A DNA stretch of 64,000 bases from Gordionus sp. m RMFG-2023 (lineage: Eukaryota; Nematomorpha; Gordioida; Chordodea; Parachordodidae). Made by a program: the position numbers and the translations under genes. Each line of letters opens with the position of its first letter. Within the stretch, counting starts at the first letter, position 1. The DNA is taken from positions 22,793,366 to 22,857,365 of the forward strand of contig NC_088777.1 of NCBI RefSeq assembly GCF_954871325.1, written 5' to 3'. This document shows positions 4,230-64,000 of this stretch, piece by piece. A model generated the notes under the pieces. The model did no database searches, had not been told where the DNA came from, and was given only the letters and a program-made list of their open reading frames with translations.

Positions 4230-4733
4230 AATCAGGATCTGGAACTGATAAAAATAATACCGGTCCCAAAGTTCTTAATTTTCCCTCAATTGGACCAGTG
4301 TGGTTTGGCCACAAATGTTGAATGCGATACTTCGACAAGATTTCGTAAAATCGATGGAAAATGTAACAATCTAAATTTTCCTTTTTATGGCTCGGCAATG
4401 ACGGAGTTAAAAAGATTTTTACCACCTAAATATCACGATGGTAATTTTTATTTAATTAAATAATATTAAATTTTTAATTAAATCAACAGAAAAATGGAAT
4501 TCAATAAATATATTTTCACATAATATTGGTAAATATTTATTATTTATATATTTTAGAAGTAAATGTTCCTCGAAAATTTAGTATAGTGGGTAACTATTTG
4601 CCTAACCCTGCAAACATTAGTTGGCATGTCAATAAATTTTTTCCCAATTTAATTTATACAAATCTCACTTTGGCTTTTTTGAATTGGGCGATATTCATTG
4701 ATCATGATATGAGTCTTATCCCACAATCACGAG
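4230..4733 (+). CDS. Peroxidase exons 1-2 (N-terminal catalytic part)
   Basis: The first visible exon carries the family's RKIDGKCNN segment and LKRFLPPKYHD, which correspond to the usual YR..DG.CNN and F.R.L.P.Y.DG of animal peroxidases. A 116-bp intron follows, then LPNPANIS and the distal His motif in WAIFIDHDMS. In myeloperoxidase numbering the residue equivalent to Gln91 is Ile here, while Asp94 and His95 are kept. The first exon begins in phase 0 after an AG at 4228-4229 (an AG at 4215-4216 is also possible), so at least one more upstream exon is expected. Confidence 0.85.
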
Positions 4734-7700: not shown

Positions 7701-10700
7701 TTCTCTATCGGAATTTCGCCAAGAAGTAGCCACAACAATGTGCCAAGTTAAAGCTACAATAGAAATGAGACCCGGACGTCCTTCTTCTATGGTCGTAAAT
7801 CTAATAGAAGGTGATTATTTATTTATTATTGTATTATATTTTCATTTAGATAAAAAAAAGAAGGGGGCCTACGTCTTTCGTACCGTCCATAGATATTCGC
7901 ACGGATCAAATTGGACAATTCCCAGAGTGTGAATAATTATCAAAGTTGCAAAAATCTACTATGTATAAAGGCGTTACACATGTAAAATGTTCGAAATGTC
8001 AATGCGTACTATGTTTCCATGCAAAAAAAACTGCTTTATTTTATTTCATACCAATATATACAATTAGACCTGTGCGCCGACAAAATATCGGCGGCCGGCG
8101 CAATTTTTAAAAAACCTAATAATCGGCGCATATATAAATTTTTATAAGATACATTTTTTTTATTGCATATTAATTTTTTAAAAAAACAAATAAATATACA
8201 CTATTCTACAGATATCTCGGCATATATTTTAATATTCATTTAATAGAAAACTTATTATATCCAAAATCGATTTCGTAATTTAATTATCATGTATAAAAAT
8301 TATTTTATTTAAATTTTTGGGACATAATGATGATCACCTTGAATTTAACGTCAATCCAGCGGTAGAGAAAACTCTTTCACTAGGTGTGCTAGTCGCCAGA
8401 ATACAAAGAATTTTTTTGGCGAGCCTGGAAAGATTGGGAAGTTCACTCTTCTTTTCTCTCCAAAAATTTAGAACGTCCATATCTTGTGAATGTCGTTTTC
8501 CAAGAAACTGTGTGTTCTAAAGTCACCTAACTTGGAATCATAATTTATATTTGTTGAATGTTTATTTGCCAATTTTGTCAAATAACTTGAATTTAATAAT
8601 TCATCTTCATCCTCAGTAGCTATATTTACTACCTGATTATCATCATTCTCTATAAGTTTAAGATGTTTTATTATAAATTCTGAAGCTGAGCAATTTTGCT
8701 CTATTAAATATTTTGACACAATTGTCAATTTTTAAAATCTTGGATCTAAAAGAGAAGCCAATACCTATAAATAAAAATAAAAGAATATACTTATATAATA
8801 TTACTTGCAGATTACAAACCGGAAATCGTAACGCAAGTCTTTTTTGCATATTTTCCTTAAGTGAAATAATTTAAGAATTATCACTATCATTTACTATTAA
8901 ATGTGTTTCAATTTCACTTCTAAAAAGTAACGCTAAGTTTAAAGTAGGCCCTTTTAGTACTGAAAGAAATTCGACAGTTTCTTTAAATTTTGAAAAATGC
9001 TAATAGTTCTTCTACCAGATCAGATTCATAATTTGATAATTTGGGAAAGTGCTTCCCAATTCTTTTCAAAACATTATTAATTAAATTCTTATTTAATAAA
9101 GATATGTTTCTAGCATAATTAATATACTATGCCAACGTGTTGGGATATTTAATTTTAAGGTTTTCATATGCGTGGAATTATTGTTACTATTATCATTGGA
9201 ATTGCCAATTTGAAACCGGGTATCCGGGTATGGATCAATGTTGCCATGATCTAACATGTCTGATGTTAAATCTATTGTACTTAGGCATTTTATTTGATAT
9301 TCCTCGAATTCAAATTCAACCTCTGCAGTTTTATATCTTAGAGCAGTAATAATTTCTCTAATTCTTTTGCAAAAAATTTCATGACTATGGATTTTTTATT
9401 ATCCAGAGTTAGGATACTAAAATTATTTAAATTATTAAATTAGATGCATCCATTTTAAAAATATGTAAAATTATTGTAACTTTTGGAATTTTAGATTTTT
9501 GATTGATTGAATTCTATAATGACGTGGTCAATATAATTAAGATTTTAAAATAGTAGAAAATAAAAATTCATCAAAATCCTGATTGACATTAAAAAATTAC
9601 AAGAGTAATGTTTACCAATTATTAGAATAAAAAGGTAGAAAGAAATTTCTGCGCCGGCCGTGTGCCGCCGATATGAAAATTGTCAGCGCGCCGGCGAACG
9701 GCGGCGTTTTCGGCGTATGGCCGGCCAGTGCACATGTCTATATACAATACAATAAATTGTTTGTTAAATACACTTTGTTAATTATATGTAATATACATTA
9801 TTATAGTCAAAATAAAAAAAAAATTTTTTGATCAATTATCGATTAATATGTTAAAGGGAATACCTGAGAATTTTTTCTATTATTGCAAACATTATGTGAT
9901 AAAGGGTTAATAAAATTTAAAATTAATTTTAAAAAAATTCCTTTTGTAAAATAAATATTTTGCCAAACCCGACTCAGCTTTTAGACATATATTTGGGAGC
10001 ATTTGTCCTAACTCACAAGATTTTCACCTTTCTTAAATAAATGAGGAAACAAAAATTTATTTCAATAAAATAATTGGGCTTTCAAAAAGTCATTTTATGT
10101 CGCATAATAGAGTGTCATATTTGGAATAATTTATAAAAAAGTCTGAAAATTTAACCAATTTTGCAGATAAAGTATCGCATGATAAAATCTAGGTTGATAA
10201 AGTTTCGTGTTACGAAATGCCCTCGTGAAAAAGTGTCGCGTGAGTCGTATCGAGTAGGCTTATGGAAAATTATTCGATATTCGAATTAATTCAAAATTTA
10301 TAAGAATATTAAAATATTCAATTTTATAAGAATTTGAATCGAAAATTTTATTCCTAGATTTTTGAAAATCATAAATTTTATTAAATATTAGAATTTTATC
10401 ATTAATTTTTGAAATGCTTTACTCTCAATCATGTTTACCTTTGAATAATTTTTGAAATTAAATGTATTATATATAAACCATTCGACAAGATAATTATATA
10501 TTATAAAATTTAAAAAAATATAAGGTTATATGAATTCAATGTTAAATTGCTCAGCTTGCGATAGTGAATATTTTATTAGTAAAAACTGCATGCCCATTCA
10601 ATCTCATTTGTCTCGCCAAAAAAATCCTTATGTAATAAATTTATGCGATTCATTCGTTAGATCATCTGCCGCCAATACCAAATTTGGTATTTTTTTAAAT

Positions 10701-13700: not shown

Positions 13701-16700
13701 ATTTGAAATTACTTTTTATTAAATTTAAAGGCTTTATAAATCGTTCCGGACTTTTGTTTAGTCTAGGGAAGCTTACATTTATAGTAGGCATATTCAAAAT
13801 CGAATTGAATTAACGAATACGAATAATATTCGACAAATTATTTGAATTTTGATTGATTATTTGAATTAATTATTCGGAAAAATTATTAATATTAAAGTAA
13901 TTAGTTACTCTTGATTTACTCTTGATTTTATTGTAGCTAATAATTTGTTACTTATAAAAACTTTTAAATAATGATTATTTTATAAAAGGTTTCTTTTTTG
14001 TTTTTTATAAAAAAATATAAATTTATTATTAAAAAAAATATTCTGATTTCATCATAACAGTGAGAAAAAAAAATATAGCATACAATTTTTTTTAAAAAAA
14101 AACCAATTCTAGAAATTTTAAGAAATTTAACAACCAACGACTTCATAATACAAGGTATAATAATGGGAATATAATTAGTGCAAATGATAATACGAGGAGG
14201 AAGGGGGGGGGGTAATTTAAAAAAAAAAAGGGAAGAAGAAGAAAATCTAGATTAATCGGGCTCCTCGGGGAATGAACCTATGAAGCATGTGAAATTAGAT
14301 TTTATAATCTGAATTCCTATGCGTTGACGTAAGTAGACGCCTTCTTTTGGGTCTCCTGATTTTGTTCTTAAGGTTCTGCCAATCTTTTTGACAACTGGTA
14401 CGAATTTATACTCATCTGGAATATCCACATATTTATTTGTTTTAAAATCTTCGGTGTATTTTAAAATGTCTTTATTGATGTTGGAGGGTGAGAGGGGGTC
14501 AACGCAGGAGAAATCCCAGGCTAGAAATCGGCCATTCTCCCAGGGAATTTGTGTAATTCCATCGGGTCGTCTCCCATCCGTAAAGAGACCTGAGGGTTCT
14601 AAAGTGGCAGGAAAGCCTGCTGACTGTAAAGCTCGTTTTATGAGAGCATTACATCTGTTATGCCGGATCGAGCGTCCACTGCTAAAAATGCATTGGACGC
14701 AATGACGACCAGTTTGACTAACTGGCCTTTTGCACTTGGCGCACTTATATGAAACTGAGGTTGTTGCATTTAATCGAATGGCTACAGCAAAACTGAATTC
14801 TTGATTTGAAAGTTCGAGATCAAGATTTTTAGAGGGGATGGCGTCCAAGTATTCATGTCCTGAACCTTGGTTGAGGGAAGCTAATAGGGCATGATCTTCA
14901 GATTGCAGTGTCGAAAAGAGGTAATCAACGGACCTTGCAATCATCGGATTATCCCAATCCTTTTGTTTATGGGAGGCTGGTGGTAGACATTCATCTCCAA
15001 CTGAGGCTTTCCAAATGACATAAGCTTCGTCAAGCAGTGCATCTGGCAAGGTCAGGTGATCAGTTATTATTTTGGAGCTTGCCAATCTGGACGAGATGAA
15101 ACCACTAATTGATAAGGCTATGGGTGATCGTAACCCTAAGCCTCCTTTATTGCAGGGGAGAGTGGCTTGATGCCACGAATTGGAGATAAATTTGAGGTTA
15201 GTTATTTTTTCCATGATGTTTTTAATTATGGATTCATATGCTCTTAAGGGATTGGGATGTTTAAAAACAGCAGTAGACCGTAGAGCATATAGGATCTTTG
15301 GTATATTGAAGAAATTTTTAATTAAGAAGAAAGATTTATGCGTGGGAAGTTGCATAAGTAGACCCTCCATATTGTTCAAATTATTCGAAGTAGCCTGGAA
15401 AAAGGCTTCAACTGCTAAGCAACCCCCAACTGGTGAGCCAAGATGTGTTAGTTCTTCGGCCATAACCTCTTTAAAGGCGTGACAGTTGGGAGATTGAGAG
15501 GTGAGCTGACAGAATTCTGTTTTGTCGACGTTTAAGAGAAGGCCTATGTCTGGCCCATCCTTTTGCAAAATTTCTAGGGCTTTGTCTATCTCTTCTGGGC
15601 TTTCGCTTATAATCCCGTCATCTATGTACCAGATATGAAGATCTAACAGGCAACTGCTTTTAATTTTTTTAACTAGATTGTCTATTCCTAGACAGAATAA
15701 TATCGACCCTAGAGGATCACCCTGTTGAATTCCTTCTGAAGAAGAAAGCCTATATTCACCATATTGTAAGATGGAGGGATTCGCATAGCAGCTTAAAATG
15801 TAGCTGGAGTAGCATGGGAAGCTATTGATAAAGGATTTTAGGAAGACGGATCGCTTTATTGTGTTGTATGCATTGTAAAAATCGATTTTAATCAGGTGTT
15901 TTGAGGATTATTTTGTAGATATATTCGGGTTATATGAGCGGCAGACTCGCAGCCGCCTTTGACACCAACCCCTAGTTGAGTTGATGTGAGAACTGTAGAG
16001 ACCTTCTCATTGATTCGAGCCGAGATCAATTTTGATACTAGTCTTCTAAAAAGGGTGCCTATGGCAATTGGGCGCAAGTCTTTGTTTGGTTTTGTAAGAG
16101 CTATTAGTTTTGCTACAAACATAATTGGCTGGGCGAAGATAGGAACGTCACCATGTAAGATCCTGTTACAAAGGAGAGTTATACTGTTGAGTAGGGTAGT
16201 TTGAGAATTTAGAAGAGGGATTGTTAGGTCTTGAAGATATATCGGTCTCATGCCTTCAAAACCATGTGCAGAATCTTTTTGGAAGGTTGAGATTGCTTTT
16301 CTTACTTCCTCTGGGGTAAATTCTATTGGATAAGATGTGGGATTTAAACCAGGAAATTCAGTTGAAGATGCCTGATGTGTGGGGTGCTTCATAGCCAATC
16401 GGGTATAAGTTTGAAAATTAATGGGGGCTAGTGTGTCTGATGAAGAGGCCAGACGGAGTGCTCCTTTTATATCTAAATTATCGATTTTTTTTCCAACTAA
16501 ATTTACTTTTATCTTAAAAGGATTTATGGATAACTTAGGTGTGGAAGTTATGTCCATTGAAATGTTGTCTAGATCATTCAACCTGTTCTTAATTTGTTGA
16601 GTGAGGGACAGCTTGCTTTTGTCAGTTGGAACCTGAAAGGCATGGAAGCCAAATAAGAGAAACTCTTTCCAGTGCTGTGGGGAGTTAAAATTGGTTAGAA

Positions 16701-19700
16701 GGTTATTAATAGTTTTACTATATGATTTAGCCGCAAGAAGCCTGGCTCCCCGGGGGATTCTTGAGATAATATGAGATTTAGGTAAATTTGTAAATTCATC
16801 GGAGAAGGAGGGTATTGGTAACTCATTGGAAGTACAGGGTGAGTCCTCATTAACAGATAAATTATTAATTGTGGTGAGAGCTGGGATATGTGAAGGGGAT
16901 GTTAATGTTAAATGCAATAGAGAAAATGGAGGGGGGATAGGATCTGTAAAAGGTGACTGATGTGATAAATGACACAAGTTACCACTTTTACCGTGCTTCC
17001 TTAGGGTTCCGTTTTTGTTGATTAAGGTATTTAGCCCACAGTTTGGACATTTTTTTTTAATTGGGATATGTGTAGAAGGGGACATTTACGTTTATAGGGG
17101 GAGGGGCAAGGTGGGAAAGGGAATTGAAATTTTTGTGTTAGTTTTTCTTAGAGGAAGGGGAATAAGATGGATATATATACATTTTAAAAAAAAAATAATT
17201 TTTTAAAATAAGAAGAAAAAAAAAGAACTCGAAATAAAATTGTTGAAGTTTATCGTTAAATTGATTTTATTTTAATTAAATGGATGTTAAGATTATGTTA
17301 TTTAAAAAAAATTAAAAATATAAAAATAAATAAACAATTAGAAATTAACATTGACGTAAATGGTGGTAAGTAAAAATGGTGTATAATAATATACTTGAAA
17401 TGAAGCAAAATTTTTCATGGAAGAAGGTAATGTTATCAGTGAAACAAAAAAAAGGGGGCACGGAAATATCCGATATGAGAAGGGAACTCATTTTTTTCTT
17501 TTTTGAGACTCTGAAGAATTATCGATTGAGAAAAGATAAATATAATTTGAATTATTTGAGAGATTAGTGTAGTCATCTAGATATGTTTTCGCAAATAATT
17601 CGGAGAATTAATCAGTTGACTATCGCTTTGGTTGAAGATAGACTATGGTCATCTGTAAAGGGCTTGTAACCATTCGGTTTTATAATGTTTATGCCGAATA
17701 AATCGAATAAATAGAATTAAGAATACGAATGATCGATATAGTCCGGAAATCCCGAATATTTAATAAATATTGCAATATATCGGTAGAAATAATCGAATAT
17801 TTAATTCCCATACAAGTAAGGTATATAGGTTTATATTCTTCATGTAATAATAATTAATATAATATCGTATAAATTAAATATTAAATAAAATTTTTGAAAA
17901 TATAACAAAAATATTAAAAAAATACAAATAAATGCTTTTAAATTTAAAATATTATTTTGATTTAATATAGAATTCTTATAGAAAATGCAAAATTTTATTA
18001 ATTTTTTGAAGAATATCACTATTTGCTTTAAAATTTAAAATATTATTTTGATTAATATAGAATTCTTATAGAAAATGCAAAATTTTATTAAATTTTTTAA
18101 AGAAAATCATGTTATTTTGAAAAATTATTTAAAAAACAATGTTTATGTATTTGATTTTAACAAGTTACAAGTATCTTATATTTTGAATCTTTTATATTTT
18201 TAATAAGATATTTCTAAGATCCTTTTTTTACAAAGAATCTGTATCTAGATTTTTTTTTGAGGACCTGCACAACTCTGTAGACAGTCATATAAATAAGGAT
18301 ATGAAATTTTGTCAGATTTGAAGGAATAGTATATCTTAATCGATTTTAAATATGTGTTCATTTAGGTCTATAATTATTAAAAGGAGGATTAATTAATTAT
18401 TGGATTAAAACCTAAGTTTAACATTGGGCAATACAAATATACAAATGGTATATTGGAAATCTCTACCTTAGTAGAATAAAGGATCATACTAAATTTTGCC
18501 GAACCCTACAAATAGAAAAGTAAAAATCAAAGTCGGATATTTTTAAGTAGAGTCCCTAAAATAAAATTTTGAATTTTAAAAGAAGGAACAAAAATTTCGT
18601 AGGGATTTTAGAAATTATTTATTATAAAAATTAATAGCTATTATATTAGTGAATATTCTGAAATCCATCTATTGTATCCAGTGACTACATAAATGGAGGG
18701 GTGTAGGAGCCACATTTGCCCCAATCTTCCAGGAAATGGGTTCCTAATATAGTAGTGAGTAAATAATAAGGGAGAGGGTATGAGGGTAAATTTAATCATG
18801 TTGCCACTAATAAAAATTCTCATGTAGATGCATAATAGAATTTTATAAATAATTGTTTTAATTTAATTATAGATCACATGTAAAAAAAAATAACGTTTCA
18901 TCTTTAAACTTAATTAAAAAAATTATACTAAAATTCAATATTAGGAGACTCGCAAAATTATAGGCGCGATGGTTCAGCACATAACTTTCAATGAATTTTT
19001 ACCAAAATTAATGGGCAATGAGAATATGAAAAGATACAACTTATATTTAGAGGACATGAAGAACGCTGAATATTATGATAACTATAATGACAAGTGTGAA
19101 CCTGGTATAAGGAACTCATTTTCAACAGCGGCGTTTAAATTCTTTGATTTAATATTATCTAAAACAAACTCTAATTTAAAAGAATCTCAACCTTCTAGGT
19201 ATATTAAGATTGCAATGAATATTTATGTTTTGACTTACGGAGCAATTATAATTACATTTTTATAGTTATTATATTAAGCTAAAATATTTATATATATTAA
19301 AATTCTTTTGAACAATACATTGATCTAACGTAAAATGATGATTCATAAAATGCATTAAAAAGCATGCATCTATTAAAGTCCATCATCGTAAAGCATTTTG
19401 GCAAAATGGTCAAGAGCCATTGGCATATATCGCTTTCAGTATATGTACACTTTTAATAAATGAATCCTCAGTTTGTTAGTAATGTTATTATTTTGATGCT
19501 TATAAATATTTCTATTTTTATGAAATCCATCTATGTGTATTTTTTAGATTTTTTGTTGGGGGGGGGGGGAGGAGGGGGGCTGTAAAATATTACGAATCTC
19601 AACTAGGCTGGGCTTAGAAATAAAAATTAATTACAAGTGGCTCTGCTTTATTTTATATACACAATTGCTAGGCCGAATTTTAAACTACATCGATTAGGTA

Positions 19701-47380: not shown

Positions 47381-47862
47381 TTACATAAGGTCGTTGGCTT
47401 TATTGGCAGCTGAAAATTTCATTCTCTTTTGTTTTTGCCTCTGATTACAAAACCAAACCCTGACTACATTCTTCTTTAACTCTAATTTATCAGCGATTGC
47501 GCTTATTTTATCTCCCGAGGGCCTGGGTTGAACCGAGAAATATGCTTCTAGAGATCTTTTTTCGGGGGCTGCAATAGACGTTCTTTTCCTTTTATTATTA
47601 CTACCATTATTATTATTGTTATGATTGAAATTACTGCCATGATTATTACTATTATTTTGATTATTTATTGAATGGAAATTATGAGACTTTGACGAGTTAT
47701 TAGAGAGTGAATTATTTTCCTTTTTGTTGTAAACAATTTGCTTGTGATTATTGCGGTTAGACGAGCTACTATGAATGGAAGCTTGGTTAAGGTCCAAGTT
47801 GTTTATATTTGAACAGGGATTCTGAAAGTTAAGCTGAGATCCGGTGTTTTCATAATAAGATT
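47381..47862 (-). CDS. POU4: POU4 exon 3: linker end and homeodomain
   Basis: The acceptor GAAG at 47866-47863 after nine T's is the one that keeps the phase-1 join and gives EESYYENTG-type residues; later CAG sites at the TCTCAG and TTTCAG would break the frame. The exon contributes 159 residues: about 90 of Asn/Ser-rich linker, the complete homeodomain, and a tail FSAANKANDLM. It ends at TAA 47383-47381. Confidence 0.92.
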
Positions 47863-50800
47863 CTTCAAAAAAAAATTTTTTAAGATTTAAAAATATATAT
47901 AAATGCAGAAAAAATGGAGTGAAGAAAGAAACAAATATTTCTGTATCAATGAGTTTAAACTATATAAATATTCAATTCTAATAAAAACTTATAATTATTT
48001 GAAAAATTATCTACACATACAAACTAAGTTGTCCGACCGGTTTGTAATAAATCGTTAGAAAGGAAAAATATAAATTTACTTAAGTATTATCTTTAATAAA
48101 AATTTACTAGGGGAGACCGGGGATAGTGTGTTCCCGGGGTAGGTATTTCCTTCTCAAATAATTTAAAAATTAATAAAGTTTAAGATTTGTAATTTAAGCC
48201 CAATATGTATTATAATAAGGTGCTTAAGTAGGTCCAAAATTGTTTCGGACAAAATTGCTCATGAAAAATTTTAAATGCAAATTTAAGTTTCAACATACCC
48301 AAAGTAACTTTTTTAAATTTTACATTTTCACGAATAACTTTTTTTATAAAAGTTGTTCAGACTTAATATAAATTCTAAATGATAAAAAAATCTCCATTTT
48401 ATCATATATAAAAATATTGACAATCATTATGTTATTTTAATATTCTAAATTTAATTTTTAAATGATCCTGTGGACCTGGGGAAGGTATTAGCGGGGTGCG
48501 TCTTTTCCTTTTACATACATTCATTAAAATATTGGTTCTGATTTTGTAAAATGGTTCGAACATATATTAGAAAAACTAACAAAGAAAATAATGATAATCA
48601 AAAGGCAAGTATTCTTCAAATGCTGAAATATAAGATACCTTTGACAGTTATAACCATGAATACGAATTTAAGTTATGGGAGGTATATTTATATATTTAAA
48701 TTAGTATATATTTAAGAAACTAAGCATTAAGAAGTATAATAAATTGTTCAAAAGAAATGAAGATTTTCAAGAGCGATATCTTTACAGATCAGTATTTTCT
48801 CCTATTCAAGAAGCTAAATTAACAGATTATTTAATTAAAGGATCAAGATTATTTTCAGGATTATGCCCTAATCAAGTATTTTAATCCTTTGTTATATCAT
48901 ATATCTCTGTAAAATGATTTTTTTTATAATCTTTAAATTTATGCCATGGTATTTCTTTAGTTAAATAATAATAAACTTGAGAAAATTTTTTTAAATTATT
49001 TACATTATATGTTAATGAAACATCTTTATTAATTTTAAAATACTTTAAAGTAAGAATTTAACTTATACATTAGAATGATATTTATTTAAGTGTGTATGAT
49101 ATATATGTAAATAAAATGATGCTGCCATGTATATATATTAATTTTAAAATGATGCTGCCATGTATTAATATTAATTTTAAAATGATTTATGTAGCATTAT
49201 ATATATTATATCATGCATTAAATCATATCTTACCTATATATTAAAGATTTAATTATGTGTGTATGATATATATTTAAAATAAAATGAAGCTGCCATGTAT
49301 ATTAATTTTAAAATGATTTATTCATTGATTTAGCATTAAATTATATCATGCATTAAAACATATTTTGGTTCTTACCTATACATTAGAGGTTTAATTATGT
49401 ATGATATATTTTATTATATTAATTATTAAATAAATTCAGAATAAAATTTAAGAATTAGGATTTTAATTAGATTGCCTTAATATATAAATAATTTAATGTC
49501 TTATGTTTAAATTTAGGTTAGAGTTTTAGCTTATCAAATGGCCAAGAGGTATAGTTTACAAGTACCAAAATCTTGTGAAATAACTCAATCAGCTGGTGAA
49601 GACTGGGTTGGAGCATTTATTAAAAGAAATCCAACCATTTCTTTGAGAACACCAGAGGCTACAACAAGTATAGCCAGGGCTACCAATTTTAATATGAAAA
49701 TGGTTGATTTATTTTTTAATTATTTGACTGTCACAAGGGAAAATAACTTTCTACCATGTGATATATATAATATGGATGAAACTGGTTAATTAAAATATAA
49801 ATGATAGCAAATCTTTAATATTTTCATAGGATTAACAACAGTTCAACGGCCTAATAAAGTTATTGCAAGGAAAGGCGAAAAACAGGTTGTGGCAATTACT
49901 ACATCAGAATGTGGTACACTTATGACCTTGGCAATTGCTGTCAATGCTCTAGGAAATTCTATTCCACCTATGTTTATATATCCCAGGAAAAAATTTTATG
50001 ATCATTATTTAAGAGATGGCCCTGTAGGATGCATTGGCGTGTATAATGGTTCTGGGTGGATGCTGGCTGAAGATTTAATATATTTTTAAAATCATTTTAT
50101 AAAATACACTAAGCCCAGTCAAGATAAAAAAGTTTTGCTTATATTAGATAATCATAAATCTCACCAATCTATTGAAGTCATTGAGCTGTGCTCTGACAGT
50201 GGTATAGTTCTATTGACTCTCCCTCCCCTCTTCACCTTACAAAAAAATAGCCAGATCTAGGGCTAATCTGAAAAAAAAATCAAACCAATAATAAAAAAAG
50301 TTTAAATATGAATGCTGGCAAAAAAGAATTTTGTTTAGTGTGCCACAAAAACTATCAAACTCACCACCATAATGAAGATTGGATTGTCATTTATGGGCAC
50401 ATGGATCATGTTGTGATTTTAATCCATTTTTTATATGTAATAAATGTGTTGTATGTTAATATTATATGTTTGTTATGATTTTTATATGAAAAAAATGAAT
50501 AAAATGCTTAGAAAATGATAGTATAAAACATGCCCCACAAAAGGACAATACATCCCCCGTCTCTTTTTCATGACTCAAAAATTTTCATTTTTTTTAAATT
50601 TAAATTTAAAAAAATATATAATATTTTTTTATTAGATATTAATTTCTACCGTAGATAATTATATAAAGAATAAAATAACATCAAAATTATTTTGATAAAT
50701 TATTTCTCCTCCTTTTCACAGCCTCTCAATTTTTTATGGACAATATAACCCCGGTCTCCCCTATAATAAATATTTTGCATATATCATAAATAAGAAAAAA

Positions 50801-53800
50801 TAAAATTTTAGTCTTCAACTCCAAATAGGAACTGGGAAATGAGCCCGTAAAAATTGAAAATTATAATTAATCAGAAATATAATTATAATTATATAGCCTA
50901 TGTATGAGGCCTAGCTAATGAAATATTGTTCAATAGGGTATTATTTTTGACCTTTTCCTCTTTAACCACCTCCTAATCTGAGAGCGCTGTGTTTGTTCGC
51001 CAAACTATTCATAAGGATACTCTATTTAATCATCTAATACATATCATGTAAATGCTAATCAATTTTATCATCTAATATGAACATAGTTAATAGATAAACT
51101 GGAACTTATTCAATATTTTGATGGGGTTAAGTTAAGCAAGCCAAGTTTGTATCTTAACAATAAGTTGAGGAGGAGGGTAGGGTAAAGTAAATATATTAGA
51201 GGATTACCAATTACATTATTTGCTTGCGCTATAATAATATAGTAGTAATAAATAAGTGTATATACAAAAGTAGGTACATGAATTTACCAACATAAAATGC
51301 GTATCACGTCAATACCGCGAAACTTTTACCGCGAAATGTATTATCGCGAATGTATTATCGCGAATGTCGATTACCGCGAAAAGATATTATAGCGAATGCA
51401 TTACCGCGAATGCATTATAGCGAATGTATCATAGCGAATATATTAGCGCGAATGCATTACCGCGAAAATATTATAGCGAATGCATTACAGCGAATGTAAT
51501 ACCGCGAATGCATTATCGCGAATGCATCATAGCGAATGTATTATAGCGAATATATTAGCGCGAATGCATTATAGCGAATGCATTACCGCGAAAACATTAT
51601 AGCGAATGTATTACAGCGAATGTAATACCGTGAATGCATTATCGCGAATGCATCATAGCGAATGTTTTATAGCGAATGTATTATAGCGAATGCATTATAG
51701 CGAATGCATTACCGCGAAAACATTATAGCGAATGCATTACAGCGAATGTATTATCGCGAATGTATCATAGCGAATGCAATATCGCGAATGCATTACAACT
51801 AACATTATCACAATGCAATAGTGATTTATATTTGACAAAATTATATTTAACCCATTTATTAAGTTCCAAAAAACCAGAGAACTAGCTTAATTGTCCATAT
51901 TGATTTAAAGTAGCGTTTTAAAATTATTTACCTCTAAAACACGTCACTTGTTATTTATGAAATTCGTATTTTATTAAAAAATATGTGGAATTTGGTATAC
52001 TCAATTTTTTTAACGATTAGATTAAGTCGTTTTTTACAAAAGACCCTATTAATAAATATTTTATATTTTAAGATTGATTCTAGTAAAAGTTAATTTTTGC
52101 CCCAACAAGCCCCAAACCCCAGGTTTGTAGATTATATTGGTTTATTAAGTCTCCTATAGGATAATTGTTATTATCAATAATACACCATTTGTATATAAAT
52201 AATTCACAAAAAATTTCAAAATGTGATAAAGTTTTAATGAATTTTTTAATTTTTTTTCTAATTCTTTTGATTATCAACCACCAGAAAAGGTGAAAGTTAA
52301 AGGGAAAAAAATAGAATTTAAAGCTATAATAGCCAATGAATACTTATTATATCATATTTTTAACCATAATATAATTAATTCGACCTAATTCTACTAGCCC
52401 CTTGTTACTGATATGATTAACCCTTTCCAGCGCTAAAAAAATATGTTGATAATTTTAAATTTTTTTAAATAAGATTAGATGAAGGGGAATTGAGACCTCT
52501 ATCTTATTAAATCTTTTGTAATCGTCAAAATTATTAATTTTATAGCTTTAAAACATAAAATCTTATCTTTTTTAAATTTAAACATTGTTAAATTTAAAAA
52601 TAATAAATGCCAACTCCTGTTTCAAATATAAATCTTAAAATGATAAAAAATATATTTAATTATATAATGGTGTATTTTGATAATAACAATTATCCTATAG
52701 GAGACTTAATAAACCAATGTAATCTACAAGCCTGGGGTTTGGGGTTTGTTGGGGCAAAAATTAACTTTTACTAGAATCAATCTTAAAATATAAAATATTA
52801 AAAATATTTATTAACGTATAACTTAAGTTAAGTGTTTGTTGGGCTATCTCATGGTATTTAATAAATTCAATTATAAATTGTCAAGCTTATGATGATATTG
52901 ACAAAAACGACTACTAGCCCTATTCCTACTATTGGAAAAAAGTTGATAATGAGATCAAAAATTTTGATTATTTACTGGGCGGCTAAAGAACGTCGCGTTT
53001 GAAATCTTATTAACTCCGAAACGTGTCATTCGTTTTTTATGAAATCTCCTGTCTTAATATTCTCAAAATATATAATTTAAAGTGGTTTTTAGAAAATTAA
53101 GATAAAAAAAATGTAGTCGTACATATATATTTTTAAAGATTTCCTTTAATTCATAAACTATAACATAAAAACAAAATATTTTAAATTTTATAAAGTGGCT
53201 TTTAGAAAATTAAGATAAAAAAATGTAGTCGGACATATATATTTTTAAAGATTTCTTCAAATTCATAAACTATAACATAAAATATTTTGGCATTATTAAA
53301 CAAATCTCATTATTAAATACCACTAACAATATAAACATACGATAATTTTCTAAATTATGTATTTTATCAAAGATCTGATAATGATAAAATTTTGACATGA
53401 GAATAAAAATTGGAATCAAATTTAATTCCTGAATTCTCTAGGAAAAAGTGGAATATTAATCCAGTTCACCAAGCTAACCCCATGGTTATCATATAACTCA
53501 TCAATCTCCTTTTGTTTTTCAACTAAGATTTTATCAAGCAAAACCATAGATTCGTAATACGAATTCCACTAGAATTTATCAGATACCTACCCAATTTCTT
53601 GATGTTACCTGCCATATTGGTAGACATTTTTTGTTTATTCCACAAAGTAAGACATTTTGGAAAGAACTTTGTGATATTATTTTATGTTATCAGCTAAAGC
53701 TAAAAAATTTATAATGCCCATAATTATGGGAGACCGGTCTTATAATGAACCCAGGGTTATAGTGAGAGTGGCTTTATTTTCTAGAGTATTAAACTCTAAG

Positions 53801-56800
53801 AGATAATTTTTTACCAAAACTATATACTTATATATTGCATATGCGGCTATAATTTTTATTTCTAACGGACCGCTTGAAGAATTTTTAATATGCTTTATAA
53901 TATTCGTACCTTCAAACGTAACTTTTTACACTTTTACTATTTTTCAAAAATAAAGATTAATATATAATTTTACCACACAATAATCATCTTATATAAAAGA
54001 AAAAATCCTATTTTATAGAATAACAAATTACCCGAACAAAATTGATAATATAAATACTTCAAAATATGATCTTAATCAAAGTGGTGCTACTGGGGCTATT
54101 TTTATGGGGTTAGGTCGAACCTTATTTTTTTGCTATTTTTTAAAAATTTGACATGCAAAAAAAGCCAAGGAGAGACCAACTAAAAGAAAAAAAATCGAAA
54201 AATGTTATTATATGATAAATAATTGTTTGGTATACAAATAAATTATATCAAGCATAACAATCAAGACTGCTTTCAATGTCAGTTATTAGTTACATGGCTT
54301 TGCAATTTTATTGTTTTTTTATTTGCAAAGATTGTGAATGTTTTAAATGATTTTATATAACACTTTTATGTTTTAAATCATTAAATATATCCTAATAAAA
54401 AAATATATAACTTTTATATATGGAAAATTAAGCAGAGTTTATAATAGCCTCGACCAAGGGCTTGTTCGTCCCCGAGTAGGGTTCACTCGGTTACCAAAAA
54501 AAATTCCAGGAAAAATGATATTTTGAAAAAATGATATTTTGAAAAAATTATTAGAGATGTATTTTTGAAATTTAAACATATCATAAAACTAATAGAGCTG
54601 AACAAAATGAGATATTTTTTATTAAAAATGATAAAGTACTTATAATTTTCTTAAGGTTTGCCTTTAGGGTTCGCCATAACCCCGTTCTCCCCTACAAGTT
54701 TTCAATAAATTAAAAAGAAAAAACTTGATGTTTAATATTTAAAATGATTAGATGAAAAAGAGAAATCTATTTTATTACTTAGAATCTTTTTTATATATTT
54801 TGAGTCAAAAAAAAGAAAAGCCTTATCCTTAATTTCAATAAAAAAATGTTTTTAGAGCCAATCCCCATTTTAACTTAATTTTCAGACTCAACTAAGTTAG
54901 TCGAAAAGTCGATAAATATAAAATTGTAACTTTCATGAAACTCCATTCGCGATATGATAATGCATTCGCTATAATGCATTAGCTATAATGCATTCGCTAT
55001 AATGCATTCGCTATAATGCATTCGCGATAATTCATTCGCTATAATGCATTCGTTATAATGCATTCGCTATAATGGATTCGCTATAATGCATTCGCTATAA
55101 TGCATTCGCTATAATGCATTCGCTATAATGCATTCGCTATAATGCATTCGCTATAATGCATTCGTTATAATGTATTCGCGATAATTCATTCGCTATAATA
55201 CATTCGCTATAATGCATTCGCGGTAATATATTCGCGAAAATGCATTCGCGATAATTCATTCGCTGTAATGTATTCGCTATAATACATTCGCGATAACATT
55301 TTCGCAGTATTACATTTTCGCTAATACATTCGCTATAATATTTTCGCTGTATTATATTCGCTATAATGCATTCGCGGTAATGCATTCGCTATATTATATT
55401 CGCGATAATGCATTCGCTGTAATGCATTCGCTATAATATCTTTTCGCGGTAATCGACATTCGCGATAATGCATTCGCGATAATATATTTCGCGCTAAAAT
55501 TTTCGCGGTATTGACATGTAACCCATAAAATGCGTTTTACCAGATGATTCGTCATTTTTTCAAATGTATACAATACCGATACATTAAAAATTAGTTATTT
55601 GTTTTGGAAATTTTATAATCAACAGCCAATATATATGTCGTATTGGGATATAGAATCCGAGGGGATTCGGAATCTCTCAATTTTAAATAAACATATGAAA
55701 TACTTTTGATTTATAAATTTTAAAAAATACACAAAAGTTGAAGTAAAAAATGTTTGAAATTTATAGAATAGGTACTCTATACATGCTGGAATATTTTTTC
55801 GGTCACCAAATTTAAAATCACCCTCAAATTATTTAAAATTGAGATATTTCGCATGGATTCTGTATCTCAAGACAACGTTAATTCCAAGTCAAATCAACAA
55901 ATATTTGGTAGTTTTCGTGGGAATTTCTTTGATAAATCGGTATATGCAGTTTACTATAATGAGTAAAATTGTCCAAATTTTAAAGTTCAATTTTGCCGGC
56001 ATGCCGAGATTTGACTCATTAAATTTGTAAATGGAAAAGTTGATATTTTTGATCATCATTATCTCACATATAAGCAAAGATCATAAAAAACTACAAACAG
56101 ATTTGATATCTCATATAGCTTTCAAATTATTTTTTATTATTTATAATTTTTTTAAAAAAATAGCGTTTTACCGGCAATTGAATGACGGAAATCAATCCAT
56201 CTCAAAAATGACCTTGAAGTTTTTTAAAAAAGCAAAATTAAGCCTTATTATTAAGGCAAGCATAAAATTAATTTGTGATCTCAAACAGTTTTTGGGATAT
56301 TTATTAAATTTTATTTTTTCTAAAACATGATTTTTTTAATTTACAAATTTCGAAAATTAAATACGTTTTTTAAAATATAAACCAGAGACCTGCATGCCTA
56401 GCCCTGTATTTTTTAAAAATATACCCTTACCGGGCCTAATTTTTTTTAATCGTCATATCTACAAAAATTACAAATAATTAAAACATATTTAAAAGCAATA
56501 TAACACACATTCATTAACTTATATTTCCTATTTCTATTTTTTCGATCCTTAGAAAATATTATTTAAATTAAATATTCAACTAATCATTACTTTAGATGAT
56601 ATTAAAAGCAACAAAAATACACTCAATATTTAAAATAGAATACAATTAAAGGGAAAATTGTATTTTAGATAAGTATCATTATATCCCCCTTTTTTATCCC
56701 AAATTCAGGCAAATAAATATGTTTCCAGGGAGAGAGCGCAAAGACTATACCTATATAAAAGACTATATTAAATTACAAGAAGAACAGGAAATAAGGGAAT

Positions 56801-59800: not shown

Positions 59801-62800
59801 AATAATATTTTTTATTTTTGAAAATTAAAGTAATTTTTAAGGGTTTACAATCATGGCTATGAACTAGACCCGAATCCAGAGTTGTGAATCTGTGGGTATT
59901 TTATGAGAATCTGAATCTAAACCCGAATCCGTTTTCAAATTTCTTAAGAAGCTGATCCGACGGTTTCATACTTTTTCAAAATTTAATGGAAAAATATTGG
60001 AAGATGTTCTAATTGTGCGATTGAATAAAATTTTTAATATTGCTAAATAAAATATCAAAGATATTATTAATTATGTAGATTTAGATTATTATGAAGATAA
60101 TCAATATTTATAAAGTTTGAATGAAATATTATACAACTTTAAAAAATGATTTAATATAGATTTTTAAAAAAATTAAATGACATTTTAAGATTTTTGATTT
60201 CCATTTTAAAAATTTAGGCTGACATTTTAGAAATTTTGATTGTCATTTAAAAATTTGATTGACGTTGAAACTATGTCATGTTTTGATCTAGTTTTGAACC
60301 CGAACCTGGCCAAAAAATTTTGTGTGTTTGAAGCACTTCTTTACGTCAAAATATTTGTTGCATAAATTTTGTTGAAGGACTATAAAGTCCTTTTTAGACC
60401 TTTGGCCAGGTACCTTTTGTAAAAAAAATGGTTTTACACTTTTTCTACAAATTTTAAATTTCTAAAAATACCAATTATAGTTATTATTTATAAAAAATTA
60501 TTAATACTTGTTTATTTTAAATTCTAGTTTGTAATGACTTATTGCATTTATTATTTAGGAAAAATGACTGGAGGGGGTGGGAAGGGGGTGTAGTAGAATA
60601 TTTTTTATTAGCTTTAATCTCCCAGATGGGGAGGGGAGTACTATTTCTTATCTTATGCCTGTTATAATTTAAATCCTCAAGTATAGAAGTAAAATAACCT
60701 TTTTTTGCGAAAAATGCATTTCCAAATTTTTAACTTAGAAGTTATTTTAAAAATTTTTTAAAAATACAATAAAATTAGGATTGCATTATTTATAATCAAT
60801 GACATATTATACTTATACCTAGATGGATGATTTATTCTTTAAAGCTCATTCAGGCATAGCTGAATAAATCAGCTGGCGACACCTTATTTTGGTTTCTTAT
60901 ATAACAATATTATAAGTAAATATAACTCGAAATTAGTGATCTGCATCGGGCGGCCCGAAATTTTTTTAAAAAATTTTGCCGGCAGACCCGAACCCGAAAT
61001 AAATTTTAAAAAGTTTTAACGGCCGGCCCGGCCAGAACCCGATTTTTTTTTAAAAAAACTAACCGGCCCGGCCTGGCCCGAATTTATTTAAATATAAAAT
61101 TTAATCTTTATAATTACTCAAAATAAGTCATATATGTTATATGGCGTCTAGTTTCTATTAATAAAATCTAATATTTTAATTTTACATAAAAATTCAACAT
61201 TAAATGATAAATTTAGATATATTTAAAAAAAATTCCAAAGCTTGACTCGACCAGGCCCGAATTTCTTTAAAAAATATTAAGCCCAGCCCGTACCCGATTC
61301 AGATCTCTACTAGAAATATTTTTTAAAAAAAGTTTTCATAAAATTTTATTGTAAAGTTTTTATATTGTAAATCAAACTGGAGTAACCAGCTGATTTGTAT
61401 TTATAACATTTAATGAATAAATCGACAGTCTGGGTAGTATTATCATTGACTATAATATAAAAAGTGGAATATTCAGGATTTTAGTAAGTGAGAGGGGGGG
61501 GGGCATTCGAAGTGGTTTTCTGCCATAAATTTTAATGGATTTGAAAGTATTGCTTAATAATGACATATTGCAATTGTTTATTTAGAGATGGGGTTAGTGT
61601 AGGGAGATATTTTTATGTTAGCTTAAAATGATATTTACGTAAACTGGCTTTGCTAAGGGGAAAGACCCCTTCCATCACCGTTAAGCCAATAAAAACAAAG
61701 ATTCTATCTACCAGTCTGGGTTATTGTATAAATTAGCATTTCTAAAAATAATTATATAAAAAAGAACCAATCTTAAAAATAGAGTGCTGTATAAAATTAA
61801 AAAATGCATATTAAACGTAAAAATGATTTACCGACATATTGTGCTCTGAGATAAAGCTCCAACACCGGGTATTCTAAGTTTCGCCAAGGCATTTCCCACA
61901 TCGGCTTGAGTTACTCCTAATTTGATCCTTCTTTGCTTGAATTTTTCTGCAAAAGCTTCCAGATCTTTTGGGTCATTGCTATCGTTATTTATTGAGCAAT
62001 TTTCATCATTAGCTATTATATTGTCTCTATTGAGCCCTTCATTTTTTGTAATAGTTTCGTTGTTGCTTCCTAAATTTTTGCTTATATTTATCATCTTAAC
62101 GGTAGAGTTAAAGTCGAGAGAAGATTTTAATTTATTTTCGTTGTAAGATTTACGATCTAATGCTTTCTGTTTCTTGGAAAAGTTGTAATGATTCTTATTA
62201 GGCATAAAAATATTGACTGGTGGAACGTGAAAAAAACTAGTTTCATTGTAATAACTATCTTGCTGAGGATTGTTATCTGAGGTTTTTGAAGTTTTATCAA
62301 AAGCTGAACTATTCTCGTAAATTTCCCCATAGTTATTACTAAAACAATTTTCGCTATTTTGAACCTTGAGATTTTCGTGCTCCCCAGATGTGGTAGGGAT
62401 TGTTGTTTCATCCTTTGCATTTAATTTGGGAAATATTTTTAGTGGATGGTGGCCAAAATCATACGTGATTGAGTGATTATTATTGTTATAAAATGATGTG
62501 CTATTAAAGGGTAGAAATGGTTGATGCAATCCAGGTATAAGATTACAAGCTCCACCCATTACATGAGAGCCCACAATCGATGTATCTGTCAGTTGATCTA
62601 TGCCGTTATTCTCGGCTCCCACTTCATTTCTTGAACCCCAGTTAGCTACACTGTTACATTCGCTCATTGAAGAATTAGGGGGTATTTGATGAGAATGGTA
62701 ATAATTGGTATAATTTTTGTAATTATAATTGTAATAATATGGAGTATAATCATCTCCATCTTTCCTGGTTGGAACATTGTAATAACTACTGTAATCAATA

Positions 62801-63402
62801 AGATCTAATTTGTTCTGATTACTAATGTTACCAATGCGTTTCCCGTCTTTTCGTTCTAAAGCGCCTCTAAAGAGACTATCCTGATGATCGGTTTCATCAT
62901 TATTATTAAGAGCGAGATTATTAGAACTCGTAGTTCCTGAATGATGGCCTCTTATAAATTGTTGATCACTTCCATTGTTAATATTTTCTAGGTGAATATT
63001 ATCTAAAATAGGAAAAACATTTTTTGGGCCTGTATCATTCGTACCGTTTGCCGTATTCAAGAACAAATTTTCGTTAATTACTTGCGGATAGTAATAATGA
63101 TGATAGGAATTGTAAAATTGACGAGTTAACGATTGATTGCCTATCATATTGGTGTTTGAAGTGATAAAATTTTGAGGAGTTAAATCAGAATTATTTTCAG
63201 TGCAAAATTGGTTAAAATTGGTAAAATTAATGTTGATATTATTATCGTATTCTAAGGTGAAAGGTGTGTACGAAAAATTTTGAAAAGGTATCCTGTCCTT
63301 TAATTTATAAGAAATAGATAAAGTAGGTTCTACAGACTTTTTAGAAAATAGATTATTAGATGTGTTGCAATTAGTTGCTTCGTTTTTGATAGCCACACTC
63401 AT
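47381..63402 (-). CDS. POU4: POU class 4 (Brn-3/unc-86) homeodomain transcription factor
   Basis: Three exons on the minus strand: 63402-61832, 58882-58584, 47862-47381; GT-AG introns of 2949 and 10721 bp with phases 2 and 1 that join exactly. The 783-residue protein has an Asn/Tyr/His-rich N-terminus, a POU-specific domain (about 480-552, split by intron 1 at CR|FESLTLSHNN) and a POU homeodomain (about 714-772, KRKRTSIAAPEKRSLEAYF, helix 3 RVWFCNQRQK). The GALSQSTICR and KRKRTSIAAPEKR segments are diagnostic for class 4, nuclear DNA-binding factors that specify sensory neurons in animals. Odd points: the linker between the domains is about 160 residues of Asn/Ser-rich sequence instead of about 20, and I see no POU-IV box. 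The ATG is directly preceded by an in-frame TAA. The class is certain; the symbol denotes the class, not an orthologue number. Confidence 0.97.
47863..48107. other. POU4 intron 2, exon-3-proximal stretch
   Basis: AT-rich intron with the polypyrimidine tract of the exon 3 acceptor; nothing else seen. Confidence 0.5.
48110..50761 (+). mobile_element. pogo-like DNA transposon with transposase, in POU4 intron 2
   Basis: The ends are GGGGAGACCGGGGATAGTGT at the left and, inverted, GGGGAGACCGGGGTTATATTG at the right, with TA on both sides (48108-48109, 50762-50763), the target of Tc1/mariner/pogo elements. It is 2.65 kb and carries the transposase relic at 48551-50420 in the same orientation. Shorter elements with the same ends, at 53727-54692 and 56897-57834, are likely mobilised derivatives. 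Confidence 0.9.
48551..50420 (+). pseudogene. pogo/Tigger-type transposase (DDE_1 family), internally deleted
   Basis: The protein reads in blocks separated by introns. 48551-48681 starts MVRTYIRKTNK, a psq-type helix-turn-helix. 48717-48875 gives IQEAKLTDYLIKGSRLFSGL, then an intron to 49517. 49517-49784 gives VRVLAYQMAKRY, SAGEDWVGAFIKRNP, LRTPEATTSIARAT and NMDETG with the first catalytic Asp. A 45-bp intron follows. 49830 onward gives TTVQRPNKVIARKGEK, MFIYPRKKF and LLILDNHKSH with the second Asp. After LLTLPP the part with the third Asp is missing, and the text resumes with a basic segment and a Cys/His tail (CLVCHKNY...). A stop at 50087-50089 and the uncertain first junction add to the decay. 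The gene is dead. Confidence 0.87.
50764..51290. other. POU4 intron 2 spacer
   Basis: AT-rich sequence between the pogo-like and foldback-like elements. No feature seen beyond the 12-bp direct repeat at its right edge (51291-51302). Confidence 0.5.
51303..51795. repeat. Left minisatellite arm of element C
   Basis: About 34 units of 14 bp. Most of the variation is in the three bases before GCGAA (ATA, ACC, ATC, ACA, TAGC). The array has no spacers of the kind seen in CRISPR. Confidence 0.9.
52046..52807. repeat. Inverted repeat (about 145-bp arms) holding two copies of a protein-like tail
   Basis: Left 52046-52190 and right 52672-52807 are inverted copies with about 90% identity (GCCCCAACAAGCCCCAAACC and its partner; TCTCCTATAGGATAATTGTT in both). 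Read outward, each arm encodes the same peptide ending at a stop: NNNYPIGDLINQYNLQTWGL then GLVGAKINFY on the minus strand, and NNNYPIGDLINQCNLQAWGL then GFVGAKINFY on the plus strand. Most differences between the two peptides are mild substitutions. I do not recognise the protein. A third, more decayed copy is at 39205-39420. Confidence 0.8.
53090..53290. repeat. Two-copy tandem duplication, about 107 bp
   Basis: AAAGTGGTTTTTAGAAAATT...ATGTAGTCGTACATATATAT...AACTATAACATAAAA occurs twice in direct orientation, inside element C. Confidence 0.8.
53727..54692. mobile_element. Non-autonomous pogo-like element nested in element C
   Basis: The left end TGGGAGACCGGTCTTATAAT and the inverted right end GGGGAGAACGGGGTTATGG match the termini of the pogo-like transposon at 48110. 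TA follows the right end; the left flank TTA is compatible. The interior (966 bp total) has no readable transposase. Confidence 0.75.
54945..55523. repeat. Right minisatellite arm of element C
   Basis: About 40 units of the 14-bp repeat in the orientation CATTCGCTATAATG, inverse to the left arm. Variant units (CGCGATAA, CGCGGTAA, CGCTGTAA) mirror those of the left arm near the tip. Confidence 0.9.
55536..56382. other. POU4 intron 2 spacer
   Basis: AT-rich sequence. Open stretches on both strands around 55840-56330 show no recognisable protein and are probably chance. Confidence 0.45.
56383..58010. mobile_element. hAT-type MITE interrupted by a pogo-like MITE
   Basis: The left end is CAGAGACCTGCATGCCTAGC; the right end, inverted, is TAGAGACATGCAGAGGTACC. 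Flanking 8-mers ATATAAAC (56375-56382) and ATATAAAT (58011-58018) agree at 7 of 8 positions. It is about 690 bp without the nested 56897-57834. The ends resemble those of the GC-rich blocks at 17 and 28106. Confidence 0.75.
56897..57834. mobile_element. Non-autonomous pogo-like element (938 bp)
   Basis: The left end GGGGAGACCGGGGTACATTG and the inverted right end GGGGAGACCGGGGATGGTTG are flanked by TA (56895-56896, 57835-57836). The interior repeats GTCCCAAC and TAGTTGGGAC motifs. Same family of ends as 48110-50761. Confidence 0.88.
58330..58440. mobile_element. hAT terminus fragment (AGAGTTGTTAA type)
   Basis: AGAGTTGTTAATGCTCCTTT followed by AGGAGCAACTCC matches the GC-richer right end of the hAT relic at 38407-39150. 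The partner end is not clear. Confidence 0.45.
58584..58882 (-). CDS. POU4: POU4 exon 2: end of POU-specific domain and start of linker
   Basis: The acceptor AG at 58884-58883 gives the codon join CG|T and the text FESLTLSHNNMVALKPILQ, then WLSEAEAE, the last helix of the POU-specific domain. The rest (about 65 residues) is Asn/Ser-rich linker with a Pro-containing patch (CSPVPIPSLHTYPGKY). The donor CGGTAATT at 58585-58579 is required: reading on meets TAA. Confidence 0.93.
58927..59252. mobile_element. GC-rich MITE-like block in POU4 intron 1
   Basis: TAGAGCCCAAATTCGGCCCG at the left and, inverted, TAGAGCCCTGCAAATTAAA at the right. The target duplication is unconvincing. Its right half is part of the tandem duplication 59091-59554. 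Confidence 0.5.
59091..59554. repeat. Tandem duplication, period 232 bp, highly similar
   Basis: GCAATCACCGATTTTTAATA starts at 59091 and again at 59323; the two units (through GTTATGGAATTCGTTT) differ at only a few positions, so the duplication is young. It duplicates the right end of the MITE-like block before it. Confidence 0.9.
60934..61309. mobile_element. GC-rich hAT MITE in POU4 intron 1
   Basis: The ends TAGTGATCTGCATCGGG and, inverted, TAGAGATCTGAATCGGG. Flanking 8-mers CTCGAAAT (60926-60933) and CTAGAAAT (61310-61317) agree at 7 of 8. The interior has repeated GGCCCGGCC-like runs. Confidence 0.85.
61832..63402 (-). CDS. POU4: POU4 exon 1: N-terminal region and most of the POU-specific domain
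   Basis: It starts at ATG 63402-63400 (MSVAIKNEA), directly after an in-frame TAA, so this is the start unless an unseen exon splices in. Residues 1-479 are low-complexity, rich in Asn, Tyr, His and Ser, with few Pro/Ala runs. The POU-specific domain begins at DLEAFAEKFKQRRIKLGVTQ and stops in the codon for R of STICR, with the donor CGGTAAAT at 61832-61826. I could not find the N-terminal POU-IV box typical of bilaterian class 4 proteins. Confidence 0.95.
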
Positions 63403-63774: not shown

Positions 63775-64000
63775 TTCAAAAAAAGGAAAAGTCCCAATCA
63801 AAAAAGGAAAAGATTCAATCATAAAAGGAAAAGGTCCGATCAAAAAAGGAAAATGTTCAATCAAAAAAGGAAAAGATTCAATCATAAAAGGAAAAGATTC
63901 AATCATAAAAGGAAAAGGTCCGATCAAAAAAGGAATAGGTTCAATCAAAAAAGGTAAAGTGTCAAACAAAAAAGGAAAAGGTCCAATCAAAAAAGGAAAA
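63775..64000. repeat. 18-bp minisatellite upstream of POU4, continuing beyond the window
   Basis: At least 12 units of GGAAAAGATTCAATCAAA and variants, including GGAAAAGGTCCGATCAAA. Because the unit is a multiple of three, both strands stay open, but the products are simple repeats (RKRFNH; FPFMIE) and are not believable proteins. The GGAAAAGGTCCGA unit also occurs in the left arm of foldback-like element A (about 2692), so this is probably the arm of another copy. Confidence 0.85.

Follow-up and report, generated by a model that had tools for sequence, protein, structure and literature searches.

Introduction

The arms of foldback (FB) elements are long inverted repeats built of short direct repeats, and to our knowledge FB elements have long been known without a transposase. 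Tm1, a Mutator/Foldback family of Meloidogyne root-knot nematodes (PMC3169594), combines in the accessible text of its description units of 13-15 bp, mostly 14 bp, with asymmetric 7-bp ends, a 9-bp target-site duplication (TSD) and a Phantom-type FLYWCH-MULE transposase (PMC3169594), and the accessible part of a further source gives a TSD range of 8-11 bp for the Mutator superfamily (PMC6446971). Here we describe a foldback transposon copy of 4,224 bp that has a pair of inverted arms and two unlike ends, located at positions 51300-55523 of a 64,000-nucleotide stretch of DNA (the window; G000:C3:22793366-22857365) from the 287-Mb assembly of the horsehair worm Gordionus sp. m RMFG-2023 (Nematomorpha). 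Tm1 is the closest known system, with nearly the same layout. We are highly confident that the element in the window belongs to a Mutator-type (MULE) foldback family of Gordionus, of which it is a non-autonomous copy with an internal deletion.

Element copies and target sites

The window element (Table 1) has two oppositely oriented arrays whose units are mostly 14 bp long, and it shows the shared tips and the shared order of variant units that a preliminary description of the window had reported, with ATGTCGATTACC followed by AAAAGATATTATA near both tips (read by eye). The two arms are complementary at 85% over 499 nt without gaps and, as in FB-like elements, they are long, inverted and built of short direct repeats. 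A second method set the inner limit of the left arm a few bases earlier than 51796.

The family comprises hundreds of foldback tips in this one hairworm genome. At up to three mismatches, 461 left and 334 right tips were found genome-wide (reversed-pattern controls, 0 and 1), and the 20-mer tips of the window copy recurred exactly at 79 (left) and 74 (right) of the 100 genome places listed for each. Pairing was analysed with the 100 left and 100 right tips that were listed: 58 of these left tips had a listed right tip facing them no more than 15 kb away, at a spacing of 1.4-13.3 kb, and no other arrangement within 15 kb occurred among the listed pairs, with ~0.3 expected by chance.

Target sites were compared in 18 two-ended copies, namely 16 of 20 fetched loci, the window copy and a longer copy, L029; the fetched loci were the next-best matches to the left arm of the window copy, 40 having been scored of 1,082 candidates. 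Exact 9-bp TSDs flanked 12 of the 18 copies, 8-bp TSDs flanked three, and one had a 9-bp TSD with a single mismatch. Inverted pairing and flanking repeats of constant length thus recur in copies elsewhere, which bears out the earlier proposal of a foldback-type mobile element.

The preliminary description had also proposed a 12-bp duplication, unusual for DNA transposons. The 12-mer CATAAAATGCGT is indeed present outside both ends, at 51291-51302 and 55524-55535 and nowhere else in the window (two occurrences in none of 100 shuffles), but CGT at 51300-51302 is the left terminus of the element and is present in other copies. Because CGT belongs to the element's own left end, the duplication proper is 9 bp, not 12, which is the usual Mutator/FB size and agrees both with the ~9-bp TSD of FB-like elements and with the 8-11 bp of the Mutator superfamily. 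CGT followed the right-hand repeat in none of the 11 other copies with an exact 9-bp repeat, and beyond the chance match in the window a 12-bp duplication was found in none of the 18 two-ended copies. The class first proposed, a foldback one moved by an unknown transposase and making 12-bp duplications, could appeal to the 12-bp flanking match that is literally there; it is nevertheless very improbable, considering that CGT is an element end, that no other exact-TSD copy reaches 12 bp, and that a MULE transposase lies inside the arms, as described below.

An empty-site comparison was possible for the copy L023, which has the TSD CCCTTCCAG and lies in host sequence that we take, from its coding pattern, to be a hAT-type transposon. 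When the flanks of L023 were joined with one repeat, all 40 scored matches (of 549 candidates) crossed the junction, and CCCTTCCAG was single and uninterrupted in all seven paralogous empty sites that were fetched of the 40 matched, the result expected from the empty-site check that had been suggested earlier. The L023 host copy has a short stretch missing two bases before the repeat, and one base differs just after it. Each arm by itself is a 14-bp tandem array, as it would be if two independent local satellite arrays had come to lie in opposite orientation by chance. That explanation has practically no probability left against hundreds of tips, 58 listed facing pairs with no other arrangement among the listed tips, exact TSDs, empty paralogous sites and shared cores, and it is refuted by the empty-site alignment together with the tip pairing.

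Transposase and internal-deletion derivatives

The family can be tied to a known transposase, contrary to what had first been supposed: in longer copies, FLYWCH and MULE domains lie between arms of this family. Twelve of 17 elements have no frame of 100 aa, but L012, L019 and L029 have frames of 260, 264 and 258 aa, respectively, which read from the opposite strand to that of the left tip. In the L012 frame a match to the MULE transposase domain was found (PF10551, 1.3e-16), and in a frame of L017 one to FLYWCH (PF04500, 5.3e-10); the DNA of the latter is a 98% match to L012 just upstream of its MULE frame, in a stretch that is reversed in L017. The FLYWCH finger N-terminal to the MULE domain, as in the Phantom subgroup, is present in the family in separate frames (the L017 segment and the L012 frame), and both domains stand in one protein in the Gordionus relatives P0001 and P0038. 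The longer copies have a MULE DDE transposase, with D28, D89 and E223 (the catalytic D, D and E) and also C110 and H113 invariant across an alignment of 10 sequences. Against Pfam, the two family segments, P0001 and P0038 matched MULE and FLYWCH only, with no THAP or P-type transposase of the Galileo kind; a PHD finger as in Rehavkus was not matched in the two partial family segments (Pfam) and was not listed for P0001 and P0038.

A genome search with the L012 frame gave at least 154 matches (147 of 1,403 candidates scored). All ten listed places at 89% identity or more had a left tip or left arm within ~4 kb, the transposase lay between both ends in six of them, and its strand was opposite to the left tip in nine. 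This arrangement bears on the alternative that the arms are one element and the MULE gene a nested passenger of another. Nested inserts do occur in the family (L011 holds one of piggyBac type, L017 one with poly(A)), and one transposase is flipped, yet a passenger is improbable with nine of ten close copies sharing the strand relationship, a sister transposase accompanied by related arms of its own and by the same two ends, and a TSD length and domain pair that fit MULEs.

The relationship of the window copy to transposase-bearing copies could be traced with L029, an 8,359-bp copy with the TSD AAATTGCTG. Two separate stretches of L029 align to the window copy, at ~89% and ~94%; they correspond to the left third and the right two thirds of the window copy, from which the ~4.3 kb between the matched stretches, transposase included, is absent. 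As judged from this alignment, the window copy is a non-autonomous internal-deletion derivative. Deletion breakpoints differ among other copies, and the breakpoint picture is the usual one for deletion derivatives of a cut-and-paste element.

Rearrangements were also seen inside individual copies. The flipped transposase at G000:C1:50483266-50484039 would fit an inversion of the core through recombination of one arm with the other. L029, the longest copy fetched, contains a 1.19-kb inverted duplication that is 94% identical (element positions 707-1888 and 4683-5829), part of which the window copy retains as an inverted pair of 148 bp.

Sister family and arm sequences

Many places in the genome match the family transposase at ~54-56% identity. 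Both of the two that were fetched (L030 and L031) have the tip GGTTCCATGTCAATTCAGCGAAA upstream, together with an array whose 14-bp units share the core, and the L030 frame is 56% identical to the L012 frame. The 20-mer tip of this sister family was found 673 times at up to three mismatches (controls, 0). Its placement was examined at the 68 listed C1 rows below 78% identity, five rows at 78% or more being excluded: 25 rows had the exact sister tip upstream in the same strand orientation, 2.4-3.3 kb away (chance, ~0.003 per row), and no row had it in another arrangement within 6 kb. One sister copy of ~11 kb has the opposite arm, with the end CGTATCAGGTCAATTCAGCG and flanks that agree at 8 of 9 bases. 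The end pair GGTT.CAT (5' of the transposase) and CGTATCA (3') is thus kept across the two families, and the core of the unit is common to both while the rest of the unit differs (GCGAA being required by the count).

A third FLYWCH-MULE family was observed in L032 (C3:2957000-2963300), which has an intact 414-aa frame. Upstream of it lies a 15-bp tandem array of the TTCTCTATAAAA type, of other sequence, between inverted 39-bp repeats and within a ~3.8-kb unit that is tandemly duplicated; this array was not used as evidence for a terminal arm. A protein search with the 414-aa frame gave 139 hits, of which 120 were listed. A quick tree of 94 rows combined the L012 and L030 frames with 92 of these 120 hits (at least 380 aa, one fusion excluded); P0002, a shorter Gordionus hit, fell below the length limit. 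The four Gordionus rows group together with an SH-aLRT support of 94, two of the four being near-copies.

In the outer 620 bp of the 18 elements, 29-38 GCGAA cores were counted in left arms and 20-41 in right arms, and the unit is best conserved in TTAT(C/A)GCGAA, of which GCGAA was required by the count. Compared between different elements over the outer 480 bp, left arms had a likeness of 0.946 to one another and right arms of 0.903 (62 sampled pairs in each case); for a left against a right arm the value was 0.817 inside one element (n=18) and 0.821 across elements (n=62 sampled pairs). The two ends are thus distinct lineages. Homogenisation of the arms within an element was considered and, left-right likeness being no higher within than between elements, was not evident from these values (outer 480 bp per arm).

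Host gene, neighbouring features and nested inserts

Table 1. Features of the foldback element and of its apparent host gene, in window coordinates.
Feature	Position	Strand	Remarks
Left TSD copy CATAAAATG, 9 bp	51291..51299	+	
Left terminal motif CGTATCAC	51300..51307	+	End 3' of the transposase in complete copies
Tip sequence GTCAATACCGCG, common to both ends	51308..51319	+	
Left arm, GCGAA-core units mostly 14 bp apart	51300..51796	+	33 cores in outer 620 bp
AT-rich core without a long frame	51797..54956	.	
Approximate internal-deletion junction relative to L029, with short AT-rich microhomology	52656..52668	.	~4.3 kb including the transposase missing
Right arm, GCGAA-core units mostly 14 bp apart	54957..55523	-	37 cores in outer 620 bp
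Right terminal motif GGTTACAT, minus-strand reading	55516..55523	-	End 5' of the transposase in complete copies
Right TSD copy CATAAAATG, 9 bp	55524..55532	+	
Flank CGT, chance match to the first three bases of the element	55533..55535	+	Absent in 11/11 other exact-TSD copies
Exon-like frame with homeodomain, host POU gene	47381..47959	-	PF00046; POU-factor structures by sequence; one side of the apparent intron
Exon-like frame, start of POU-specific domain	61828..63402	-	PF00157; other side of the apparent intron

The element sits within a POU homeobox gene, in what appears to be an intron, as read from the two exon-like frames that border it. The gene had been named POU4, and the homeodomain is presumably class-4 in look; of the earlier naming, the POU homeobox gene stands and class 4 is not established, since in sequence comparison POU-factor structures from several classes matched the homeodomain frame, those of class 3 best. 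Elsewhere in the window, a relic of a piggyBac-type transposase (PF13843) split over at least two frames was observed at 6794-7932, and two overlapping frames resembling a non-long-terminal-repeat (non-LTR) retrotransposon at 14252-17085 on the minus strand, the downstream frame with a reverse transcriptase domain (PF00078). A 21-bp tandem array, which reads in frame as a repeated KRKRFNQ-like stretch, occupies the window edge (63779-64000).

Two family members carry nested inserts. In L011 (C2:25557718-25567717), a piggyBac-type insert (PF13843) with a flanking TTAA duplication occupies element positions ~1841-3326, and L012 has the corresponding empty site. In L017 (C1:8052115-8062114), an insert of ~1.55 kb with overlapping frames of 187 and 321 aa lies at element positions ~1278-2825. 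Pack-MULE-like capture of a host gene was considered for L017 and rejected. No intron is evident in the insert, its end bears an AATAAA-like signal and a run of A, and a clear target duplication was not seen; for these reasons it is more likely a 5'-truncated processed retrocopy of a host mRNA nested in the transposon. Its frames had no Pfam match even at E 10, and against PDB they gave weak short matches only, the best (1.5e-5) to a designed protein, with no single stretch passing.

Discussion

Several observations weigh against reading the window element as a deleted member of a transposase-bearing foldback family. The fetched copies are a non-random sample, because they were chosen as best left-arm matches; a recognisable TSD is missing in 2 of the 18 two-ended copies, and the right tip is missing in the stretch covered at 4 of the 20 fetched loci. 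The transposase at C1:50483266 is flipped relative to its left arm, stops occur within the matched stretch at five of the ten close places, and an unbroken FLYWCH-plus-MULE frame was found in none of the family frames examined (seven elements and L029). Five loci (seven rows at 78-86% identity) have no listed tip within 10 kb, the tip lists being partial. In the sister family, 43 of the 68 lower-identity C1 rows have no exact sister tip within 6 kb, and the opposite arm of the other fetched copy was not found in ~14 kb.

With a MULE foldback family as the preferred reading, the transposase from longer copies would bind the TTAT(C/A)GCGAA core many times per arm through its FLYWCH finger, pair the two ends, cut at the terminal motifs and insert with a 9-bp stagger. 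Gap repair after excision could then give rise to deletion derivatives, and slippage of units might lengthen and shorten the arms. The arms may stay long because many weak sites would sum to a specific end, as proposed for Galileo in the accessible text of PMC3688188. On balance, we lean towards the arms being arrays of transposase-binding sites. The element could also be as described with arms that are long mainly for hairpin formation or recombination, a possibility that we consider doubtful and still worth keeping in view. Its foldback structure would suit such a role, and arms and cores do rearrange, as one flipped core and the inverted 1.19-kb duplication in L029 indicate; set against this, homogenisation of arms within an element is not evident, and the sister family has the unit core in common but not the remainder of the unit, GCGAA being required by the count.

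Since one genome holds tips, transposase-bearing copies and a diverged sister family, Gordionus offers a good natural system for studying the function of minisatellite arms, and in the sister family arms and transposase have both diverged. We place the family with a known kind of element, as a new relative, and a new foldback class with 12-bp duplications is not upheld. Among the literature searched, with subscription papers mostly outside reach, no report of such an element in hairworms was found, and the element appears to add an animal phylum to the known hosts.

The foldback-like systems described so far share parts of this organisation. Drosophila FB and FB4 elements have long inverted arms and TSDs of 9-10 bp and are likely MULEs according to the accessible text of PMC8277862, which has FB4 moved by an unknown transposase, whereas the Gordionus transposase was found inside the arms. 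Galileo, a member of the P superfamily, has long foldback-like terminal inverted repeats (TIRs), and extra THAP transposase-binding sites are reported to lie in their tandem repeats (PMC3688188); Galileo differs in its P-type transposase and THAP finger, where Gordionus has MULE and FLYWCH. Tetris of Drosophila virilis is likewise foldback-like with tandem repeats within its TIRs, but its units are of ~220 bp and, from the accessible text, it apparently has no transposase of its own (PMC4079207).

Rehavkus has a 9-bp TSD and a minisatellite beside one TIR, and differs in its PHD finger and in the position of the minisatellite before the 3' TIR, compared with the FLYWCH finger and the arrays in both arms of Gordionus (PMC6446971, accessible part). 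For Phantom, the same source gives FLYWCH in some members, TSDs that are not indicated or of 8-10 bp, TIRs of up to 613 bp (PMC6446971) and aphid members with a minisatellite after the transposase frame (PMC6446971); in its accessible part, Nematomorpha are absent from the table row and twin inverted minisatellite arms are no stated character of the group (PMC6446971). The element is probably a Phantom-type MULE; apart from the L012 and L030 frames, the tree holds database hits only.

Tm1 resembles the Gordionus family most closely. As far as the accessible text on Tm1 goes, both have 14-bp units, asymmetric end motifs outside the inverted repeat, a 9-bp TSD and a FLYWCH-MULE transposase, and both have many derivatives without the transposase. 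The arms of Tm1 have 1-9 units against ~20-41 cores in Gordionus, 39 and 22 Tm1 elements are annotated against hundreds of tips in Gordionus, unit and end sequences (Tm1 motifs A1, A2 and C) appear unlike, and the host belongs to another phylum. In the best pair, 10 of 14 positions of the unit agree with Tm1 motif C (both strands compared; 1.5% of shuffles as good), and the likeness of five other unit pairs to Tm1 was matched by 6.6-71% of shuffles, so that homology of the 14-bp unit with motif C is suggestive only. It might be speculated that binding arrays diverge together with their FLYWCH-MULE transposase, that the layout (two unlike ends, 14-bp units, a TATCGC-like core and a 9-bp TSD) was inherited from the common ancestor of nematodes and hairworms, and that the arms are an old selected recognition device and not a by-product of slippage; we regard this scenario as unlikely.

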